A stretch of DNA of 36,881 nucleotides. It comes from Planctomycetota bacterium. Lineage in GTDB: Bacteria; Planctomycetota; Planctomycetia; Planctomycetales; Planctomycetaceae. Where the stretch lies: NCBI GenBank assembly GCA_003670925.1, contig QWQG01000031.1:1-36881 (forward strand). Direction: 5' to 3'. The first letter of the stretch is position 1; each line of letters begins with the position of its first letter. The position numbers were made by a program, and so were the translations under genes. The notes under the pieces were generated by a model. The model was not told where the DNA came from, did no database searches, and saw nothing but the letters and a program-made list of their open reading frames with translations. Of the stretch, positions 3,591-36,654 are shown piece after piece.

Positions 3591-3747
3591 TGGATTTTTC
3601 CGAAGTAAGGCGGCGAAAATAGTGATGTAGCGGCAGCCCAGTTGGCGGTCATATCGCAGAATTTCAGCGATTGGTCAAGGTGCCGCCCATTTGACTTCAC
3701 AACCTTGGTCTTCATACTGAGCCAAGACTGTTACGATTTGTTGGTTT

Positions 3748-3753
3748 GGGAGG
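3748..3753 (+). promoter_or_regulatory. Ribosome binding site fixing the start of the secreted hydrolase
   Basis: GGGAGG lies seven bases before the ATG at 3761. A TTG at 3746 would extend the protein by five residues but would overlap this site and has none of its own, so the ATG is preferred. Confidence 0.75.
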
Positions 3754-3760
3754 CCGTCTA

Positions 3761-5836
3761 ATGTTGCGGAAACTTTGCTCGATAATAAACCCCGTGCTCG
3801 TCGCAGGGGCGTTCTTCTGCCTGCTGCTGCCGGCGTTTGCGGACGGACTGCAGGACAACATCCCCGAAAACGTTCGCCGCGTTCCGGAACTCGGCGTCGC
3901 AGTGCCGGACGATCGAGCGGCCTCAATGCGAACCTCGCTGGGGCAGCTTCAGGAGAAAATCGCCGCGATCAAGGCTACCAACGATGCCACGAAGACGGCC
4001 TTGCTGTCCGATGTCATGATCTTCGAACGAGCCGTCCGGTGTGCTCTGGACTACAACGAGTTTTTCGACGTTAAGGAATTCGACAAGGCCGATGCTCTGC
4101 TTGCAGAAGGCGCAAAGCGAGCCGATCAGTTGATCGCGGGCAAGCCTGAATGGATAACTCAAAAGGGACTTGTCGTGCGCGGCTACATCAGCCGCATCGA
4201 CGACACCGTGCAGCCGTATGGCCTGGTGATTCCGCCAACGTACGCCATCGATCACAGCGTGCCGACGCGCTGCGACATCTGGTTTCACGGTCGAGGTGAA
4301 AAGCTGAGCGAAGTCAATTTTCTGTGGGACCGCATGAAGAACCCCGGCGAGTTCACTCCGGATCACACGATCATGCTGCATCCCTACGGCCGTTACTGCA
4401 ATGCGTTCAAATTCGCAGGTGAAATCGATGTGCTGGAAGCTCTGGAAGATGTTCAAAAGCATTATCGCATCGACGAAGACCGCATCAGCGTCCGAGGTTT
4501 CTCGATGGGTGGCGCGGCCTGCTGGCAGTTCGCGACTCACTATTCCGACCGCTGGTTCGCCGCTAATCCGGGAGCAGGGTTTTCTGAGACTCCTCAGTTT
4601 CTGAAAGTGTTTCAGAAGGAGGAACTCAAACCGACACCTTGGGAACAGAAATTGTGGAATCTCTATGACTGCGACAAATGGGCCTTGAATCTGACTCACT
4701 GCCCGACGATTGCATACAGCGGCGAGAATGATTCACAGAAGCAGGCGGCGGATGTTATGGAGAAGGCAATGGGGGAGGGGCTCGTAATCCGACTGCGGCA
4801 CATCATCGGCAAAGGCATGGGACACAGATACGATGCAGTGTCGAAACATGTCATCGACGCCAGTCTCAACGAATTGGCAATGCACGGCCGACGCTCATAT
4901 CGCGCTTTCTGGTTCACGACGTATTCCCTCAGATACAACAAAGCGGATTGGGTGACAGTAAATGCACTTGGTGAGCATTGGGCACCAGCAACGTTGTACG
5001 CATCGTTGGACGAAACACTACCCACAGCGAGTGTGCTCACTGTTGCGATTTTTCCTAATATCAATGATTTTACGATCCAACTCCCAGCAGGGACACTTTC
5101 ACCTCAAAGCGAGCTAGTCGTTCTTATCAACTCGTTGGGAGACGACGGCGAGCCCATAAATGGGGGAAATGAAGCATTAGAACTTCATCCACTCAGTGAT
5201 GGATCCTTTCAAGCGACATTTCGCATGGACGCCCAGCGAAACTGGGAGGAATCCACCACCACAGAAAGTAGTCTCAAGAAACGCCACAACCTTCAGGGCC
5301 CGATCGACGATGCCTTCATGGATTCCTTCGTGTTCGTGCGTCCCACCGGCATTGCAGCGAATGAAGCTGTCGGCAAGTGGGCAGAGGCTGAGTTGACTCG
5401 TGCTATCGAACATTGGCGACGGCATTTTCGCGGTGACGCGCGAGTTGTCAATGACGTCGATGTGACCGACGAACTGATTCAGTCGGCCAATCTGGTGCTC
5501 TGGGGCGATCCGAAGTCCAACAGCGTGATGGCAAAGATTGCCGATAAGCTGCCGATCCAATGGACCACCGAAAAAATCACGGTCGGCGAGAAGAGTTACG
5601 ATGCTGCCAATCATGCTCCGATTCTGATTCATCCTAACCCGCTGAATCTGAATCGCTATGTCGTGCTCAACAGCAGCTTCACCTTCCGAGAATATGCGTA
5701 TCTCAACAACGCCCGCCAGGTCCCGATGCTCCCGGACTGGGCTGTGATCGATCTCAACACACTACCCAACAACGTCTGGCCCGGAAAAGTTGTCGCTGCC
5801 GATTTTTTTGATGAGCAGTGGCAGTTGAAGCCGTAG
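3761..5836 (+). CDS. Secreted prolyl-oligopeptidase-like alpha/beta hydrolase
   Basis: A 691-residue exported protein. The N-terminus has a basic start followed by a hydrophobic stretch (PVLVAGAFFCLLLPAFA), a Sec signal peptide. The middle is an alpha/beta hydrolase domain of the S9/dienelactone-hydrolase type with nucleophile Ser248 in GFSMGG, likely acid Asp324 in SGENDS and His355 in GMGHRYD. The C-terminal 300 residues look like beta-rich accessory domains and then a segment with a phosphorylase-like ILWGDPKSN block. Planctomycetes carry many such secreted esterases/peptidases; substrate cannot be read from the sequence. It stands alone, divergent from folC. Peptidase versus carbohydrate esterase is undecided. 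Confidence 0.82.
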   Translation: MLRKLCSIINPVLVAGAFFCLLLPAFADGLQDNIPENVRRVPELGVAVPDDRAASMRTSLGQLQEKIAAIKATNDATKTALLSDVMIFERAVRCALDYNEFFDVKEFDKADALLAEGAKRADQLIAGKPEWITQKGLVVRGYISRIDDTVQPYGLVIPPTYAIDHSVPTRCDIWFHGRGEKLSEVNFLWDRMKNPGEFTPDHTIMLHPYGRYCNAFKFAGEIDVLEALEDVQKHYRIDEDRISVRGFSMGGAACWQFATHYSDRWFAANPGAGFSETPQFLKVFQKEELKPTPWEQKLWNLYDCDKWALNLTHCPTIAYSGENDSQKQAADVMEKAMGEGLVIRLRHIIGKGMGHRYDAVSKHVIDASLNELAMHGRRSYRAFWFTTYSLRYNKADWVTVNALGEHWAPATLYASLDETLPTASVLTVAIFPNINDFTIQLPAGTLSPQSELVVLINSLGDDGEPINGGNEALELHPLSDGSFQATFRMDAQRNWEESTTTESSLKKRHNLQGPIDDAFMDSFVFVRPTGIAANEAVGKWAEAELTRAIEHWRRHFRGDARVVNDVDVTDELIQSANLVLWGDPKSNSVMAKIADKLPIQWTTEKITVGEKSYDAANHAPILIHPNPLNLNRYVVLNSSFTFREYAYLNNARQVPMLPDWAVIDLNTLPNNVWPGKVVAADFFDEQWQLKP

Positions 5837-5864: not shown

Positions 5865-5926
5865 TGTAGCTTGGACACTCATGTCCGAGATATTGGCTAT
5901 GCGACGGACATGAATGTCCATCCTAT
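5865..5926. repeat. REP-like palindromic element, TGGACA-N-TGTCC family (copy 1)
   Basis: Two imperfect inverted arms, GTAGCTTGGACACTCATGTC and CGGACATGAATGTCCATCC, flank about 15 bases. Each arm also contains its own small GGACA/TGTCC palindrome. The same design, with closely related arms, recurs inside hsdM at 30287-30382. Elements of this kind are abundant between planctomycete genes. Here it lies just before the UbiA-type gene and could form a hairpin in the transcript. Confidence 0.7.
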
Positions 5927-6006
5927 CATTCGATCGTTTTGGCGTGGCAGCCAATCGAACCGTTCCCAACATCAGAAACCAGTCCACTTCCGTGAATCTC
6001 CCAAAC

Positions 6007-6945
6007 ATGACCATGACCTCAACTCAAACAATCGCTTCCAAGGCCACACCACTCACGTGGCTGCGGCTCATGCGGATCCCCACGGTCTTCACGGCATTTT
6101 CCAATATTTTGTGCGGATATTTGATCACCCACAAGTTGCTGCCTGCCGAGCTTCTGCAGCAAACTGAGCTCTGGTTACTGCTGTTCTCGAGCGCCGGGCT
6201 GTATCTGGGTGGCATGGTTCTGAACGATGTCTTCGATGCCGCGCTCGATGCTGTTGAACGGCCGGAACGTCCGATTCCTTCGGGTCGCATTTCACGTACA
6301 GCCGCCGCAATCTTCGGTGCGCTGCTGCTGATGGTCGGTGTTGGTTGTGCGGCAGCAGTCGGGACGGGAAGTCTGTTGACCGCAGGACTCATTGTCGCCG
6401 CCGTGTTGTTGTATGATGGTTATCTGAAATCAACCGTTGTTGCGCCGCTCGGAATGGGGACATGTCGATTCCTCAACCTGATGCTCGGTGCCAGTGCGGC
6501 CACGACGATGACATCTGTTTGGCAGACGACACCAATGACGGTCGCAGCGGCACTTGGGATCTACATCATTGGTGTCACCGTGTTTGCCCGCAACGAGGCA
6601 GGTAAGAGCAGCTCCAGAGGATTGCTCACGGGTATCGGAATTATGCTCTGCGGTATCGGTCTGGACGCATGGCTGGTGAAGGGTTCCGGCGTGGAGAAGG
6701 CCATTGCTGGCAGCCAGATGGCTTTGTTGATCCTTGGGCTGAATATCCTCATGCGGGCTGCGATCGTTGTGGGGAATCCGCAGCCAGTTCGGATTCAGCG
6801 GACGGTGGGGCTGATGCTGTTGTGCATTATCTTTCTGGATGCACTCATGGTGTTTAGTCTGACTGGCGAAGTCAAACACGCCGTGCTGGTCATCATGCTC
6901 ATTGCGCCCGCATCGCTGGTCCGCCGCTTCATTCCGATGAGTTAG
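6007..6945 (+). CDS. UbiA-family prenyltransferase
   Basis: A 312-residue membrane enzyme that transfers an isoprenoid chain to an acceptor. It has about eight to nine hydrophobic helices and the first Asp-rich motif NDVFDAALD (residues 73-81 from this start) followed by RPERPIPSGRIS, which binds Mg2+ and the prenyl diphosphate. The second motif is weaker (YDGYLKS). The open frame begins at 5914, but its first 31 residues are read from the palindromic element and have no family match, so I place the start at 6007 (MTMTSTQ); no clear ribosome binding site decides it. Acceptor (quinone, haem, sugar or other, including EboC-like roles) is unknown; no quinone genes are adjacent. Confidence 0.85.
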   Translation: MTMTSTQTIASKATPLTWLRLMRIPTVFTAFSNILCGYLITHKLLPAELLQQTELWLLLFSSAGLYLGGMVLNDVFDAALDAVERPERPIPSGRISRTAAAIFGALLLMVGVGCAAAVGTGSLLTAGLIVAAVLLYDGYLKSTVVAPLGMGTCRFLNLMLGASAATTMTSVWQTTPMTVAAALGIYIIGVTVFARNEAGKSSSRGLLTGIGIMLCGIGLDAWLVKGSGVEKAIAGSQMALLILGLNILMRAAIVVGNPQPVRIQRTVGLMLLCIIFLDALMVFSLTGEVKHAVLVIMLIAPASLVRRFIPMS

Positions 6946-21612: not shown

Positions 21613-21687
21613 CGGGAATTAGCGCAGTCTGGCTAGCGCGCTTGGCTGGGGGCCAAGAGGTCGCAGGTTCAAATCCTGTATTCCCGA
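21613..21687 (+). tRNA. tRNA-Pro (anticodon GGG)
   Basis: A complete 75-base cloverleaf: acceptor CGGGAAT/ATTCCCG, D-stem GCGC/GCGC, anticodon stem CTTGG/CCAAG with loop CTGGGGG (anticodon GGG), T-stem GCAGG/CCTGT with loop TTCAAAT, discriminator A. CCA is not encoded. An integrase gene starts about 120 bases downstream in the same direction, so the 3' part of this tRNA is the likely attachment site of the island to the right. Confidence 0.96.
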
Positions 21688-21727
21688 TTTGCACTCAAAC
21701 TGCATTCCGAATCGTGTTTAACGATAC

Positions 21728-21744
21728 CTGACGACGTTCGTCAG
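21728..21744. promoter_or_regulatory. Palindrome CTGACGA-CGT-TCGTCAG upstream of integrase
   Basis: A perfect 7-bp inverted repeat with a 3-base centre in the integrase leader. The size and symmetry would suit a dimeric repressor or the integrase itself. No binding data. Confidence 0.45.
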
Positions 21745-21766
21745 TGCGGCGAAAAACCTGTTTCAA

Positions 21767-21786
21767 TCGTGGAAGTTCTTCCACGA
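21767..21786. repeat. Inverted repeat TCGTGGAAG-TT-CTTCCACGA (copy A)
   Basis: A perfect 9-bp palindrome with a 2-base centre lying 22 bases before the integrase ATG. The 18-mer GTGGAAGTTCTTCCACGA recurs exactly at 21989-22006 within the integrase gene. Confidence 0.7.
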
Positions 21787-21807
21787 AATGATCAAGGACT
21801 CCCGCAC

Positions 21808-22881
21808 ATGGCACGAAAAGCGAATGTTCTTCCGTCGTATCTTCTGCACAAGCAAAGCGGTCAAGCCCGTGTTCGCATAGACGGGAAGGATCACATGTTG
21901 GGGCCATATGGCTCCGAAGAATCACGGATTGCCTACGGAAAACTGGTGGCAAATGCAGCTAATGGGATCGGAATCGACCCGTTGAAAGGTGGAAGTTCTT
22001 CCACGATTGAGTCTGGTCTGACGATCAACGAACTGGTGCTGGCGTTCATGCGTCATGCCGATGGCCACTACATCAAGAATGGCGAACCCACTTCAGAGAT
22101 TCACTGCCTCAAAGCTGCTACCCGTCCCTTGGTGGAATTGTACGGGTTCACGCCGGTCGATGAATTCGGGCCGTTGATGCTGAAGGCCGTGCGACAAAAG
22201 TTTGTGGATGCTGGCTGGGTTCGAGATTCCGTCAACAAAGGCGTCGGCAGAATCCGCCTCATTTTCAAATGGGGTGTCGAGAACGAAATGGTGCAACCCT
22301 CAACGCTTCAGGCATTGCAGGCCGTCGCGCCATTGCTGAAGGGCCGAACTGAAGCACACGACAACGCTCCGAGAACTGCTGTAGACGATGTTCGAATCGA
22401 GACGGTCAAGAAGATGGTTCGGCCATTGGTCCGCGATCTGATCGAACTGCAACGCCTTTGTGGGGCAAGATCCGGTGAACTGATCAAACTCACGACCGGC
22501 ATGATTGACCGCACTGGCGACGTATGGAGGGCGGAGATCAGCGATCACAAGACTGTCCACCATGACCAAAGCCGAACGCTGCATTTCGGGCCACATGCTC
22601 AATTGATCCTAGCGAAATATCTTTCAGCCGATCCGGACGCAAAGCTGTTCAAGATCACACGGACTGCGTTCTGTCGGGCGATTACACGGGCTTGTGAAAA
22701 GGCCGGCATTGAACGCTGGGTTCCCCATCAAATGCGGCATACGAATGCCAACAACGTCCGGGAAGAATTCGGCTTGGAACACACGCAAGCCGTTCTCGGT
22801 CACGCGCATGCCGAAATGACCCAGCACTACGCGAAAGTCAGCAGCAAAAAGGCGGCTGAAGTCGCCAGAAAGATCGGGTGA
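21808..22881 (+). CDS. Tyrosine recombinase/integrase of the island
   Basis: A 357-residue site-specific recombinase of the type common in planctomycetes (N-terminus resembling SGQARVRIDGKDHMLGPYGS). The N-terminal arm-binding region is followed by a SAM-like core-binding domain (about 70-170) and the catalytic domain with Arg221 in LCGARSGEL, His307-x-x-Arg310 in HQMRH, His332 in VLGHAHAE and the nucleophile Tyr341 in QHYAK. All catalytic positions are intact, so it may be active. AAGGA lies nine bases before the ATG at 21808; the frame is open upstream, but those 13 residues run through the palindrome. It sits immediately after tRNA-Pro and probably integrates there. Its stop overlaps a possible GTG start of the next gene. 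Confidence 0.94.
   Translation: MARKANVLPSYLLHKQSGQARVRIDGKDHMLGPYGSEESRIAYGKLVANAANGIGIDPLKGGSSSTIESGLTINELVLAFMRHADGHYIKNGEPTSEIHCLKAATRPLVELYGFTPVDEFGPLMLKAVRQKFVDAGWVRDSVNKGVGRIRLIFKWGVENEMVQPSTLQALQAVAPLLKGRTEAHDNAPRTAVDDVRIETVKKMVRPLVRDLIELQRLCGARSGELIKLTTGMIDRTGDVWRAEISDHKTVHHDQSRTLHFGPHAQLILAKYLSADPDAKLFKITRTAFCRAITRACEKAGIERWVPHQMRHTNANNVREEFGLEHTQAVLGHAHAEMTQHYAKVSSKKAAEVARKIG
21989..22006. repeat. GTGGAAGTTCTTCCACGA (copy B), inside integrase
   Basis: An exact second copy of the 18-mer found in the integrase leader, 221 bases downstream, encoding GSSST-like residues between the arm-binding and core-binding regions of the integrase. Confidence 0.7.
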
Positions 22882-28655: not shown

Positions 28656-30286
28656 CAATGGGCAGATCAGTCGATGCGGAGTCACTCAATGCCGTCCGAG
28701 GCAACAGCGAAAAACGGATCAATGGCTTCAGCATTTGCCGCAGCAAAGAAGAAAGCGGAACGGCTGACGCTGCCGAAGCTCGAACGCAAGCTGTTTGAAG
28801 CGTGTGATATTCTGCGAGGCAACATGGATGCCTCGGAGTACAAAGAATTTATCTTCGGCATCCTGTTCCTCAAACGCCTGAACGATCAGTTTCAGGAAGA
28901 TCAGGGACGGATGCGGAATGAATACACCGCAAAGAAGCTGAAACCTGACCTCATCGAAAAGCAACTTGCCAACCCGGACAAGTACGACTTCTACGTCCCC
29001 GATGACGCTCGCTGGGATTAAAACGACGACAAAGGCCGCAACAAGGGATTGGCTCATCTGAAGACCAGCGTCGATTCCGGGCTGAACAAGGCTCTGGCGG
29101 CGGTGGAGGATGCCAATCCGAATACGCTTCAGGATGTTTTGAAAGGCATTAACTTCAATCGGCGAGTCGGTCAGCGAACGCTCGACGACAGCACACTGGT
29201 CAACTTCATCCAGCATTTCTCCAACATCCTGCTGGCGAATGATGACTTCGAATTCCCCGATCTGCTGGGTGCCGCTTACGAATATCTAATCAAGTACTTC
29301 GCCGACAGTGCTGGCAAGAAAGGCGGCGAGTTCTATACACCGACCGAAGTCGTCGAGCTGCTGGTGCTGCCGATTGATCCGAAGGAAGGCATGAGTATCC
29401 TCGACCCGACCGTAGGCTCGGGCGGTATGCTGATTCGGTCGAAGAAGTACGTTCAGGAAACGGGCGGAGATCCCCGTAATCTGGAACTGGCCGGGCAGGA
29501 ACTCAACGGCGGCACATGGGCGATCTGCAAAATGAACATGCTGCTGCATGGCATTCGCAGTGCCGACATCAGGCACGGCGATACTCTGAAAGAACCATTG
29601 CATCTGGACACGAACGGCGAACTGCGGCGATTTGACCGAGTGATCGCCAATCCTCCGTTCTCCCAGAACTACAGTCTGGAGACGATGAAGTTCAAAGAAC
29701 GGTTCCGTCACTTCATGCCCGAAAGCGGCAAGAAGGCGGACCTGATGTTTGTGCAGCACATGGTGGCATCACTGAAGTCGGACGGCAAAATGGCCGTGGT
29801 CATGCCGCACGGGGTGCTGTTTCGAGGCGGCGAAGAGAAAGCCTGTCGTCAGCAGTTCATCAAAGACGGCATTCTGGAAGCCGTGATTGGTCTGCCGAGC
29901 AACCTCTTTTACGGCACCGGCATTCCGGCCTGTGTGCTGGTGATCAACAAGCACGGAGCCGCCAAACGCAAAGACGTGCTGTTCATCAATGCGGATCGAG
30001 AATTCAAGGAAGGCAAGAACCAGAACTCGCTGCGTGCGGAAGACATAGAGAAGATCGCTCAGGTCTATCGGACTCGGCAGAACCTCGACAAATATTCCCG
30101 AGTTGTGTCGTTTGAGGAACTGGAGAAGGAAGAGTGGAACCTCAACATTCGCCGCTACGTCGATAACAGCCCACCACCGGAACCCCACGATGTCCGAGCC
30201 CACCTGCACGGCGGCATCCCTATGGCAGAGATTGATTCGCTTACCGATTTTTTCAAGAACTACGAAGGCGTGAAGGATGCGATTTT

Positions 30287-30382
30287 CGTAGGTTGGACAT
30301 TCTTGTCCGACTCATCTTCTTCCCATTCCTCAACCCCATCCAAAACAAAACGCAACGACGGGCAAGAATGCCCATCCTGCGC
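30287..30382. repeat. REP-like palindromic element, TGGACA-N-TGTCC family (copy 2), inside hsdM
   Basis: Arms GTAGGTTGGACATTCTTGTC and GACGGGCAAGAATGCCCATC in inverted orientation flank a 45-base A/C-rich spacer. Each arm is itself a small palindrome. The family is the same as at 5865-5926. Translated in the hsdM frame it gives VGWTFLSDSSSS and later NDGQECPSC, peptides I recall as recurrent in planctomycete proteins. It lies between the catalytic domain and the coiled-coil tail of HsdM. Confidence 0.85.
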
Positions 30383-30982
30383 CGCATTCTCCCCAACCAT
30401 CACCACCAAAGACCAAATCAAAACCACCATCGAATCCGCCCCCGGCCTGCAAACAAAACACGCTGCGTTTCAGAAAGCCCTCGCAGGCTGGTGGAAGAAG
30501 AATCTTGCTGAGATCGAACGTCTGCCGGAAACGAAGAACGTGTTTGAACTCCGGCGGCACTGCATCGACAGTCTGGCAAAGACATTCACATCGCAGGGCA
30601 TTCTGACCGGGCATCAGGTACGAGGCTCAGTCGCTGGATATATCAAAGTACTGGAAAGCGACCTGCAATCCATCGCCGCCAGCGGCTGGGGAGCCGAGTT
30701 GATTCCTGAAGAACAGATCCTGCAATCGCAGTTCCCTGAAGTGCTGGCTCAGATAGAGAAGGATCATACTCGAATCGCCGAACTGGAAGGACTGTTCGCT
30801 GCCGCCAATGAGACCGATGAAGAAGACGCCGATCTGGAGAACGTAGACACCGAAAACGGCGTCCTGCCCAAGGCGTTGGTTAAATCCTTAAAGGATGAAC
30901 GCAAAGTGCTGGCTGGCGAAGTGAAGGAGGCGAAACGACTGACGAAGACCGAGCATCGCAAAGAAACCGGTCGAGCATCCAC

Positions 30983-31043
30983 ACTAACCCGAAGCGCCAG
31001 CGAGGCCCACACTGCAAGAGCCTCGCTGGCGCTTCGGGTTGGT
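30983..31043. repeat. REP-like palindrome AACCCGAAGCGCCAGCGAGG, inside hsdM
   Basis: A perfect 20-base inverted repeat (AACCCGAAGCGCCAGCGAGG at 30986-31005 and its complement at 31021-31040) around a 15-base spacer; three more outer bases on each side nearly match. Translated in the hsdM frame it gives LTRSASEA and RASLALRVG; the opposite strand gives NPKRQRG. Both are familiar from planctomycete proteins. It sits in the charged coiled-coil tail of HsdM. Confidence 0.9.
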
Positions 31044-31439
31044 ATATCGTCGACCGCCACTGCAGAGGAACGCATTCAGGCCATCGATCAGCAACTGGAA
31101 CGCCATGCCGCTCTGGATGCGGAACTGAAGAAGCTGAAAGCCAACATTCGAGAAGTGGAGAAGCAGAAAGACGAAATGATCGCAGCGGCTCGTGCGAAGA
31201 TCACTGAGGACGAAGCGAAGACGTTGATCCTGGAACGATTCCGCAATTTGTTGAATGAACAATTCGACGGATATCTCCGGCAGTACCAGCGATCCTTCAT
31301 CGCCGCTGTGGAGAACGTGTGGCAGAAATACGCTGTCACCACAAAACAAATCCTCGCCGAACGAGACCGTGAAGCCGCTCAGCTCGACGCCTTTTTGACG
31401 GAACTGGGGTACAATCTTTAGTCGGCAAAGTTGGAATTT

Positions 31440-31517
31440 TCGTTTAACGGCGAGGCGTAGCCGTAGGCGAAGGCGTAGGCGAAGCGGCACCGACGCCTCC
31501 GGCTTGCCGTTGAACGA
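31440..31517. repeat. Third REP-like palindrome with internal GGCGTA/GGCGAA hexamer repeats
   Basis: Arms TCGTTTAACGGCGAG and CTTGCCGTTGAACGA are inverted; the left arm is extended by five or so hexamers of the type GGCGTA, GCCGTA, GGCGAA. It starts 18 bases after the hsdM stop and ends 40 bases before the DUF433 start. Translated on the minus strand it yields an LRLRLRLR run. Confidence 0.8.
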
Positions 31518-31556
31518 TCGGGGCACAATCACCGAGTTGAACATGGAGCACACACA

Positions 31557-31730
31557 ATGATCTGGACTGAACGAATCACGATTGATGCGGACGTTTGCCA
31601 CGGAAAACCGTGCGTTCGGGGATTGCGATATCCGGTGACGATGATTCTGGACTTGCTGGGATCGGGAATGACGGCACAGGATCTTCTGGCCGATTATCCC
31701 GATCTGGAAGCCGACGATATTCAGGCGTGA
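31557..31730 (+). pseudogene. DUF433 antitoxin-like protein, C-terminally truncated
   Basis: 57 codons (MIWTERITIDADVCHGKPCV, RGLRYPVTMILDLLGSGM, LLADYPDLEADDIQA). The HGKPCVRG and DYPDLE..DI motifs are those of DUF433, usually about 75-80 residues and often the antitoxin partner of a DUF5615 PIN-like toxin. The family normally continues after DIQA with a cysteine or alanine and a final helix; here a TGA is formed exactly where the sequence switches into the 3'-truncated hsdR on the other strand. The partner toxin gene is absent. Confidence 0.8.
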
Positions 31731-33836
31731 TAATGTCTGGACAGTCTGAATGCCTGCCAGGCGTTTATCGACATACATGCCACACAGCAGCGGCGCATCG
31801 AAGCCAGTCTGGAACTTGTTCGCCACCAGCAGGATCTGGTATTCGTCGCCCTTGAACGCTTCGCGGATGTCACGCCCTTTCAGGTTCGGGTTTAGTTCTT
31901 TACTCATCTCCTTAAACGGCTCAGGCCCGGATTCCTTGTCATCGACTTCGCCGGAAAATGCCACCACCGTCGTCAGCGGATACCCTTTGTCTTTGATGTA
32001 CTTGTTGATGGCTAGTTGCCAGCGGACAGCTTCCAGACGACTGCTGACGACCACCATTGCCTTCGCCTTGCCGTCGAGCAGCGGTGCGACGGTTTCGCGG
32101 TAATGCTCGACAACGATCTGAACTTTCTGAGCGATGTTGTACGGATGCAGACGCACCCACCCCATCAACTTTTTCATGGCGGCACTGCGTTCGACTTCCT
32201 TATCGTCAAACTCTTTACCATCGTTGGCCAGCTTGAATGCCAGCTTGTACGACGTGTAGTTCTGGAGGACGTCCAGAATGAATCCTTCCTCAATCGCCTG
32301 CCGCATGGAATAGACGTGAAATGGTCCCGGCAGATTCCCTGGACTCGCTGGTTTCGACGGATCAGGCCGACGCCCAAACAGTTCCAGCGTCTTGGCCTTT
32401 GGAGTCGCCGTATATGCGACGTACGTGATTCCCTGATCATCGGCCCGGCTGGTCATCGTCGCGATCAAAATATCTTCACTGCTGACATCACCACCGTCGG
32501 CCAGTTCCTGCTGTTCCTCGACGGACAGTAACTGCTTCAGTTTTGACGCCGCTTCCCCGGTCTGCGAACTGTGCGCCTCATCGGGAATCACGGCGAAGCG
32601 TTTACCACCCGTCGCTGCCAGTTCCCGCACGGCCTTGATCGCAAACGGAAACGTCTGAATCGTGCAGACGACAATCTTCTTATCGCCGGACAACGCTTCG
32701 GCAAGTTCGGAACTCTTGCTGCCGACATCGCCTTTAATCCTCGCCACGACGCCGGTTGTGCGTTCGAAGCCAAAGATCGCCTCCTGCAACTGACCGTCGA
32801 TCACATTGCGGTCAGAGATTACCAGGACGGTATCGAAGACTTTCTTGTTGTCGGCATCATGCAGATCCGCGAGGAAGTGCGCCGACCATGCAATCGAATT
32901 TGTCTTACCCGACCCGGCGGAATGCTGAATCAGATACTTATGACCCGGACCTTCCGCCAGGATCGCGGCCTGAAGTTTGCGCGTCACATCCAACTGATGG
33001 TAACGCGGGAAGATGATGGCCTTCAGGTTCTTCTTGTCGTCACGTTCAGCCACCAGATAGCGCCCGAGGATCTCCAGCCAACTGTCTCGCGCCCAGACTT
33101 GTTCCCACAGGTAGGCTGTCGGATGGCCGGTTGGATTCAGCGGATTGCCAGCGGCCCCGTTGTCGCCCAGATTGAACGGCAGGAAACGAGTCTTTGTGCC
33201 ATCCAGCCGCGTCGTCATGCGCACTTCACAGTTGCTGACTGCAAAGTGAACCAATGCGCCATTGGGAAACGACAGCAGAGGTTCCGGATTCTGGCCTTTG
33301 GGTGACGGGTTGCGGTCGAATCGGTACTGGTCCACTGCATCGTCGATGCCCTGCGTGAAATCAGTTTTCAGTTCTACCGTCGCGACGGGAACGCCGTTCA
33401 GGAACAACACAAGATCGATGCTGTTCTCATTGTGCAGCGAATACCGCACCTGTCGGATGACTCGCAGCGTATTCGCGGCATAGCGTGACATAATGTCCGG
33501 GTTCATGGCCAACGCCGGCTTGAACTGAGCCAGTTTGATTTCCTTCCGCAGGCCGAGGACATCGAAGCCGTGCCGCAGGACATGCAGTGTGCCCTGCTGG
33601 TCGATGGACTGCCGCAGACGGCTCAGCAGCGTGTCACCCGCAGCGGCCCCGTGGTTCTTCGTCAGAGCGTCCCATGCGGCAGACTGCGTCGCCTGTACCC
33701 ATGCCAGAACATCAGCAGGAAACAGTGCCAGCTTGCGGTCATACTCGGCAGCAGCCTTGTCGGCGTACTGCCACCCCTGTCCGGCAAGATATTCGCAGAT
33801 TTCGACTTCGAAGCTGATTTCATTGTGCAGGCTCAT
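31719..33836 (-). pseudogene. hsdR: Type I restriction endonuclease subunit hsdR, 3'-truncated
   Basis: About 706 residues of an HsdR motor/nuclease subunit. The nuclease site is seen around Asp141 and VELKTDF (Glu155, Lys157); the helicase has Walker A SAGSGKT (306-312), DEAH (419-422), AYTATPKA and motif V-VI region FQTGFDAPLL and TVQTLSRLN. The similarity ends at SRLN, where families continue RTHPGK and a ~250-residue C-terminal domain. The open frame runs on to 30984 through antisense DUF433 and hsdM, which is not HsdR. The ATG overlaps the vapC stop (ATGA). Loss of the motif VI arginine and the C-terminal domain should abolish cleavage. Confidence 0.9.
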
Positions 33837-34654: not shown

Positions 34655-35356
34655 TCATGCGGCCTCCACATCGGCAAATTCACGCACGTCGATCTTGCCG
34701 GTGACAGCAGCGGAGATCAGGGCCTGCCGCTTTTCCTTCAGCAACTCAATCAATCGCCGCTGCTCCGCGATCAATGCGTCGATCTTGCTGGTTTCCGCGT
34801 CGAGGAAGCTGGCGATGGCGGTTTGTTCGGGAAGCGGTGGCAGGGGAACAGCCATTTCCCCAATTTGCACGAAATTCAGACCCTCACGTGCGGCGCCATT
34901 CTGAGCATGGTCTATCTGATTCTTGATCGGTGCAGACTTGAAGGTCCATCCGACAGCCGGAACTTGCGAAGGATCATTCAATCGAATTACGCAAACATGT
35001 TGATTGACGTTAGCCGAGGGGAAATCGCGTGGAACGACGCAAGATCTCCCAATGGACGCTCCGGTAATATTCAAGAGAATGTCATTGGGAATCACACGAC
35101 TAACGGCCATCGACTCGTCAACCAACGTCGTAATGAACACGACATCGTCGAGACGAAGTCCTTCGTCGTACACGTTTTGACTCCACAAGAATGTCACCCC
35201 TTCATCGACATAGACTTCACTTCCACCAAGTGGGGTCTTTCCGCTTGAGATTCGCGACGACAAATACTTTATCTTCTTCAACTCCCAATGCTCCGGCACT
35301 TCCCCCAGCCACTCCACCCCGCTGTCCTTGTACTTTGGATACTTCGGGAAACTCAT
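34655..35356 (-). CDS. hsdS: Type I specificity subunit HsdS with one target-recognition domain
   Basis: A 233-residue specificity subunit, about half the usual 400-450. It starts with the N-terminal conserved region ([20 protein letters not shown]), has one target-recognition domain (about 31-165) and goes straight to the conserved helix ([20 protein letters not shown], then [15 protein letters not shown]) and the terminal [12 protein letters not shown]. The second TRD and its repeat are absent. Such half subunits can arise by recombination between the two repeats and may act as dimers. The ATG overlaps the hsdM stop (ATGA). Confidence 0.88.
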
Positions 35357-36654
35357 TTAGACAATCCCCCGATCATCTGAACGATCCGGTCCGTAACGCC
35401 CTTCAGTTCGGCATCAATTTCGGCCAGTTCTCGCGGGGGTTTGAAGACGTAGAAATGCCGATTGAACGGAATTTCGTAGCCGGTCTTCGTCTTCTCATGA
35501 TCAATCCACGCATCAGGCACGTGCGGCAGGACTTCGCGCTTGAAGTAGTCTTCCACGTCTTCCGACAGCGGTACGTTCTCAGTGTCGCGCAGACTGGTGT
35601 CCGGCTTCGGCTTCCCTTTCCTTGTCTCCTTCGTCTCCTTCACGATCTTGCCTGCGTCGTCGCGCTCCGGACGCTCGACAGTGATTGTCTGGTAGCCGAA
35701 GTCGGCGTTGTTGAAGATGCGGCTGATCGGCACGTCGGAGCCACTGGCATCTTTCGTCGTGACTTCCTGACATTCGCCGAACAGTTTCGTGATCTGGGCA
35801 ATGTGGTCTTCGCTGAGTTCCTTCCGCTTGCTGCCGAGGCTCTTACGCATCTTCTGCCACATGCTACTGGCGTCGATCAACTGAACCTTGCCGCGTCGAT
35901 GTTCCAGTTTGCGGTTGGTCAGTATCCAGATGTAGGTACTGATCCCCGTGTTATAGAACATGTCTGTCGGCAATCCGATGATGGCTTCGACCAGATCATT
36001 TTCCAACACGTAGCGACGAATCTCACTCTCCCCGCTGCCGGCATTCCCGGTGAACAGCGGCGAACCGTTCAGGACGATACCGAAGCGACTTCCGCCGTCT
36101 TTGGCAGGTCGCATCTTTGAAATCAGATGCATCAGGAATAGCAATGAATCGTCGCTGACTCGGGGAAGGCCCGGACCGAAGCGGCCATTGAAACCTTTTT
36201 CCTCATGTTCCTTCGTGACTTCCTTCTGGATCTTTTTCCATTCCACGCCGAATGGCGGATTGGAAAGCATATAGTCGAACTGTTTGCCCGGTAGTCCGTC
36301 ATTCGACAACGTGTTGTTCAGAATGATGCTGCTGATGTCCTGCCCTTTGATCAGCATGTCGGCTTTGCAGATGGCATACGACTCGGGGTTGAGTTCCTGC
36401 CCGTACATGACCAGCCGAGCGTCCGGATTGTGGCGGGTCAGATGCTCATCAGCGACAGACAGCATTCCGCCAGTACCGGCTGTGGGATCATACATGGATC
36501 GCACGACGCCCGGTTTGCTCAAAGCCTCATCGTCTTCAATGAACAGCAGGTTGACCATCAGTTTGATGACTTCACGCGGCGTGAAGTGTTCCCCGGCGGT
36601 TTCGTTCGACAGTTCAGCAAACTTGCGAATCAGTTCTTCAAAGACGCTGCCCAT
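35353..36654 (-). pseudogene. hsdM: Type I methyltransferase hsdM, N-terminally truncated
   Basis: 433 residues of an HsdM of a different subfamily from the rightward copy. It starts [20 protein letters not shown], a block that normally lies about 150 residues into the protein, and has the SAM motif DPTAGTGGM and catalytic NPPFGVEW. An in-frame TAA stands three codons before the ATG, so the N-terminal domain that contacts HsdS and DNA is missing. The stop overlaps hsdS. It may be inactive, or translation of the missing part occurs elsewhere. Confidence 0.85.

Follow-up and report, generated by a model that had tools for sequence, protein, structure and literature searches.

How do two unlike palindromic repeats come to lie in frame within a single hsdM gene? 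The question is raised by the window, the whole 36,881-nt stretch of planctomycete DNA analysed here. An earlier note, made from the letters alone, had reported both repeats and proposed that they settle inside genes in the manner of Rickettsia palindromic elements (RPEs) and are tolerated there as extra peptide. Two unlike palindromes are indeed present in frame in the one gene, at 30288-30380 (element A) and 30983-31043 (element B), both on the plus strand and both from multi-copy families.

Element A is a GTAG-tagged REP doublet in the HsdM linker of ORF 29049-31421, where it is read as VGWTFLSD...NDGQECPSC (residues 414-444 of 790). It begins with GTAG and its arms are imperfect (DNA fold z -3.13). 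In an ungapped palindrome scan its score of 14 equalled that of the best shuffled gene, and by palindrome strength alone element A is not certain. No second copy of its loop was found among the fetched stretches, and a resemblance of the loop to the linker of a relative (L106) is not claimed, as 36 base shuffles and 247 codon shuffles, out of 2000 of each, came equally close. Element B consists of two 24-nt arms (30983-31006 and 31020-31043) that are 96% complementary and enclose a 13-nt loop (DNA fold z -8.87). At the coiled-coil turn it is read as about LTRSASEAHTARASLALRVG (residues 645-665). Element C (31438-31530, plus strand; fold z -2.78) belongs to a third dispersed palindromic family and starts 18 nt past the hsdM stop, at the distance first reported. 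A further family A doublet (5866-5927, plus strand) is located between ORFs 3746-5836 and 5914-6945, with its right arm overlapping the mechanical start of the latter.

The placement of the two inserts in linker and coiled coil was borne out by a structure model of the window protein (mean pLDDT 77.6). Element A falls in a stretch modelled as disordered, with residues 419-440 below 50; residues 56-76 and 82-94 of the model are likewise below 50, so that low confidence is not special to element A. For element B the model predicts a position over the turn at 643-647, which connects helix 608-642 to helix 648-717; the block means there are 52-68.

The host genome (5.78 Mb, 259 contigs) was searched for the arms with up to 2 mismatches, using the reversed pattern as control. 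The family A arm gave 141 matches and the family B arm 50, with none for either reversed control, which shows that elements A and B are not chance; chance palindromes are ruled out by these family counts together with the window scans. Element C was found at 23 BLAST places, its own copy included. The elements are thus REP-like and multi-copy, as proposed, and not single-copy. A common GTAG, a short spacer and the hairpin GGACATTCnTGTCC characterize 127 family A arms, across which the consensus for the GTAG before the hairpin is GTAGgtTGGACATTCtTGTCC, though the tag is absent from some arms. Family A forms 85 distinct groups, comprising 41 plus-minus doublets, 35 single arms and 9 other arrangements. 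Its anatomy is that of GTAG REP doublets.

In a phylum draw of 294 genomes, which included the host genome and no other member of its genus, family A (GTAG included, at most 1 mismatch) was present in 2 genomes and family B in 8, four of these with a single match; one further genome had one control match. Within the genus, at up to 2 mismatches, 6 of 18 genomes had at least 57 family A matches and the other 12 had at most 7 (controls 0-3).

Five Y1_Tnp matches were obtained in the host genome, 4 of them above the cut-off. One Y1 transposase ORF (contig C136; L253:1479-2087) is bracketed by family B arms, the arrangement of a repeat-flanked transposase gene that defines a REPtron. It scored 29.6 bits against PF01797 (cut-off 23), but only 18.2 against NF047646 (cut-off 80). 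The motifs NHVH and Y----Q are readable by eye, and CCGA occurs within the B arm, where a CnGA foot is only possible. The ORF ends in repeated SEG units followed by TLRVGN, which indicates that the encoded protein finishes in translated family B sequence. A second Y1 transposase (C85) is just over the NCBIfam NF047646 cut-off (80.8 versus 80), and four B arms are found about 0.6 kb from it. No family A arm is beside any of the five Y1_Tnp genes, the nearest being about 2.6 kb away; for family A we therefore claim REP anatomy but not membership of a REP/RAYT pair.

The gene holding elements A and B is not whole. Its HsdM_N part (28674-29018, plus strand; PF12161 on the translation, E 1.5e-19) is severed from the rest by an in-frame TAA stop (29019-29021, plus strand), and the remainder (29049-31421, plus strand), with 790 open codons, contains the N6_Mtase domain (PF02384, E 2.7e-104) and both elements. 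None of 14 aligned orthologues has a stop at the position of this TAA. The ORF scored 210 bits against NCBIfam TIGR00497, below the cut-off of 242.75. In HsdM of a type I R-M system a single open frame spans both HsdM_N and N6_Mtase; here both domains are present with a stop between them. This ORF, first described as hsdM, is not the whole gene, since HsdM_N is upstream of the stop. No hsdS follows the window hsdM. In two relatives (L106 and L107) hsdS begins at the hsdM stop; the window has element C at that place. Because of the stop after HsdM_N and the missing hsdS, the window hsdM is, from its sequence, probably not a working methyltransferase at present.

Several features surround this gene. 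A tRNA-Pro gene followed by a phage-integrase-family gene (PF00589, E 6.9e-14) occupies 21613-22881, and the R-M genes downstream of this pair may be on an integrated island. On the minus strand, hsdR (31557-33836) seems to be cut short, HsdR models matching only to about residue 707 of the ORF; beyond that residue it continues antisense into what may be the start of a DUF433 gene. A second hsdM (N6_Mtase) and a short hsdS (Methylase_S) are found at 34658-36654, also on the minus strand, and a profile search found no HsdM_N in the second hsdM ORF.

A relative of the same genus (L077, 89% identity) has an hsdM that is open throughout and lacks elements A and B. By coordinates L077 and L106 are the same stretch, one genome with two entries. 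That genome has 70 family A matches, none of them in its hsdM. The clean insertion points expected against an element-free orthologue were not seen in this closest relative, in which neither site matches the window in length or in sequence.

The damage to the gene raises the alternative that it was already dead and that the palindromes only piled up in a pseudogene, the frame being kept by luck. We consider this unlikely. The in-frame stop at 29019, the lack of an hsdS behind the gene, the presence of element C there and the apparently shortened neighbouring hsdR are all in keeping with it. Where a residue is conserved in three outgroups and in the partner of the pair, the window gene differs at 16 of 562 positions and L106 at 3 of 549, so that constraint on the window hsdM may be relaxed. 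Against a dead gene, 2.37 kb remain open through both inserts, and the window lineage shows 68 synonymous versus 12 non-synonymous codon changes (compared with L106, outgroup L107), about 6 of the 12 sitting beside variable site 2. The L106 lineage shows 71 versus 6, and the pairwise comparison of window and L106 hsdM gave dN 0.072 and dS 0.66. This substitution pattern points to purifying selection on the window hsdM for most of its time. A further point against it comes from other lineages, whose open HsdM frames carry different palindromes at this linker. Since the window gene is damaged, it cannot itself prove that inserts are tolerated; toleration as extra peptide, as the earlier note had it, is not demonstrable here and is better supported by those open orthologues.

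Of the HsdM relatives, 80 of 294 were kept in the collection, and 83 ORFs of at least 600 residues (from 95 loci with a match) were aligned with the window. Phylum labels of relatives come from MAG records and can be wrong. The linker that holds element A is 7-9 residues long in 72 of 81 informative rows and at least 12 in the other 9: 31 in the window, 22 in L106/L077, 29 in L113, 72 in L119, 14 in L114 and L117, and 12 in L116 and L133. At this same linker L113 (record labelled Chloroflexi) has an unlike palindrome in frame (z -2.66), and so does L119 (record labelled Gallionella; z -8.60), with a second palindrome behind the first (z -2.78) and a third segment that is weak (z -2.03). Of 12 shorter ORFs outside the alignment 4 retain the linker, among them L167 (labelled Chloroflexi), which has yet another palindrome in frame there (z -3.50) in an ORF that reaches the contig end. 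The L113 palindrome was reached by alignment and folding and that of L167 by a regular expression, neither of them by the ungapped scan. The longer linkers of L106, L114, L116, L117 and L133 gave no convincing palindrome (L106 z -0.72). At the two sites of the window gene, neither of its own segments was found in any other aligned HsdM row (83, plus the 4 short ORFs that keep the linker).

The L119 gene encodes an open HsdM of 918 residues with hsdS directly 3' of it (Methylase_S, E 4e-22). The foreign inserts are scarce in their own genomes, which counts against the favoured reading: that of L119 matched only itself, read on both strands, and that of L113 matched itself and 2 partial places. 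No plasmid matches to either insert were found. A pattern derived from the L119 insert matched 8 viral contigs, where alone the repeat is seen dispersed, and one derived from the L113 insert matched one viral contig. A loose pattern was uninformative, matching once apiece in 3 genomes versus 1, 2 and 0 times in the controls. The ungapped palindrome scan over 84 HsdM genes gave 2 real versus 0 shuffled hits at the strict threshold and 8 versus 5 at the looser one. Site 2 of L114 (SRHSREGGN) was weak as a palindrome, its fold (z -0.83) being no better than shuffles; it had 3 matches in its own genome and none in viral contigs. In L133, another planctomycete HsdM, the palindrome GTAGGATGGACG... 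is at the very start of the open frame, before the aligned start.

The recurrence at one linker might instead reflect a DNA target preference of the transposases and not tolerance by the protein. The four inserts are only a few codons apart, as such a preference would predict, but the four elements are unlike in sequence and have no common target by eye, and the site coincides with a stretch that is modelled as disordered. We regard a target preference as improbable.

The contexts of the family copies were assessed in stretches around 100 of the 141 A arms and 45 of the 50 B arms (5 B arms at C70, C107, C155 and C162 were left out). Gene context was judged by codon-usage scores in open frames, the scoring model having been trained on long ORFs from these sequences. 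When the same frame was required on both sides, 4 of 50 paired A groups and 1 of 20 paired B groups were intragenic, versus 1187 of 2014 random placements; this random control exaggerates the avoidance, since no frame can be broken by a random point. When the same frame was not required, the counts were 7 of 50 for A, 1 of 20 for B and 391 of 997 for random placements. In 4 of these 7 A cases the frames differ on the two sides, and these may be broken genes or neighbours. Family A and B copies avoid genes.

Clear in-frame copies amount to 3 of 50 paired groups for A and 1 of 20 for B. A first context scan had flagged 7 A groups as intragenic, from which four were removed: L056, L200 and L208 are single arms, chance or weak, and L021 had weak scores and is absent from the 7 of the frame-free count. 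The three clear in-gene A copies are in the window hsdM, in a kinase-nSTAND1 gene (L001) and in a PglX gene (L210:49-1095; PADLOC E 3.9e-115, no Pfam match). The first two are read in the VGWTFLSD frame and the third in the RSLDILV frame. Three more A arms are directly past the stop of the PglX gene. That the sole in-gene B copy occurs in the same gene as one of the three in-gene A copies suggests that the window hsdM is permissive or relaxed.

It is very improbable that A and B are RPE-like selfish coding elements spread by being read as protein in a preferred peptide frame: the VGWTFLSD frame does recur in two unrelated genes, but the PglX copy uses another frame, 43 to 46 of the 50 paired groups of family A and 19 of the 20 of family B lie outside genes, and the tag is GTAG and not the CGTC described for RPEs in PMC3733652. 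Position and frame counts rule out RPE-type coding as a general behaviour, and the proposal that these elements settle inside genes is not supported.

The account that we consider likely is that a REP-type element inside a gene survives only where the site is permissive, and that the HsdM linker is a recurrent site of this sort. Elements A and B would be miniature palindromic elements of the REP/TnpA-Y1 (RAYT) kind dispersed in a planctomycete genome, most likely, to judge from their families, by Y1 transposases acting on single-stranded hairpins. Copies are retained almost only between genes, and intragenic ones would last if the reading frame is kept and the added residues, presumably neutral, are tolerated by the protein. 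Element A would be tolerated in the linker joining the methyltransferase and C-terminal HsdM parts, which is modelled as disordered, and element B at the turn of the HsdM coiled-coil hairpin. The unlike palindromes in frame in three other lineages support the linker as a permissive site of this HsdM family. The window gene is by now damaged, with a stop behind its N-terminal domain and no hsdS behind it, and this damage presumably came later.

More tentatively, the linker may be a landing pad that unlike palindromes have entered in frame at least 4 times, under three phylum labels, with at least 1 entry at the turn; some working methyltransferases would then have linkers made of mobile DNA. 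Since an in-frame family A copy is present in the PglX gene too, REP inserts may survive preferentially in phage-defence methyltransferases. The linker offers a testable case of mobile palindromes turning into protein sequence at one permissive site, in which different elements fill the same linker in different lineages and empty relatives allow comparison. A second implication is that, among the repeated peptides of annotated proteins, some may be translated REPs and not conserved domains.

Among known systems, RPEs resemble the window elements in being palindromes read as an extra peptide segment. Nearly half of RPEs are within ORFs according to a review (PMC10969869), unlike A and B, which are in frame in genes in only 3 of 50 and 1 of 20 groups, are read in two frames in the case of A, and in A carry the GTAG tag. 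REPINs, analysed in the extragenic space of P. fluorescens (PMC3116915), likewise have the inverted REP doublet as their unit; they differ in that no transposase was found beside family A. Class 3 TnpA-Y1 transposases are known from Planctomycetes, with the motifs NHVH and Y----Q, and in-frame REPs in transposase genes have been described (PMC6006769). The C136 gene is like a class 3 REPtron in showing both motifs by eye and in being bracketed by repeated hairpins, and unlike it in that the CnGA foot is only possible and in the roughly 50 B arm matches found here.

The closest precedent is that of the GTAG REPs of the PVC group, reported as mostly intergenic with some in frame in genes (PMC3733652, 2013). 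The in-frame copies described there are 20-30 residues long, both uvrA genes of O. terrae carry two inserts each, and different REPs are found at about the same recB site in two Xanthomonas species. As in-frame intragenic REPs, even two per gene, have been in print since 2013, the palindromes in the window hsdM are a further case of a published phenomenon. The main text of that paper does not contain the word "restriction", and its supplements may hold an hsdM entry. In the literature searched we found no description of palindromes in hsdM, and no report of what is new here, namely that one HsdM linker has received unlike palindromes repeatedly in distant records. The GTAG tag, the hairpin, the inverted doublets and a mainly extragenic location with some in-frame copies are shared with the GTAG REPs as described in PMC3733652. 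The differences are that one gene of the window combines two families that do not resemble each other, and that a single linker holds unlike palindromes under three phylum labels.
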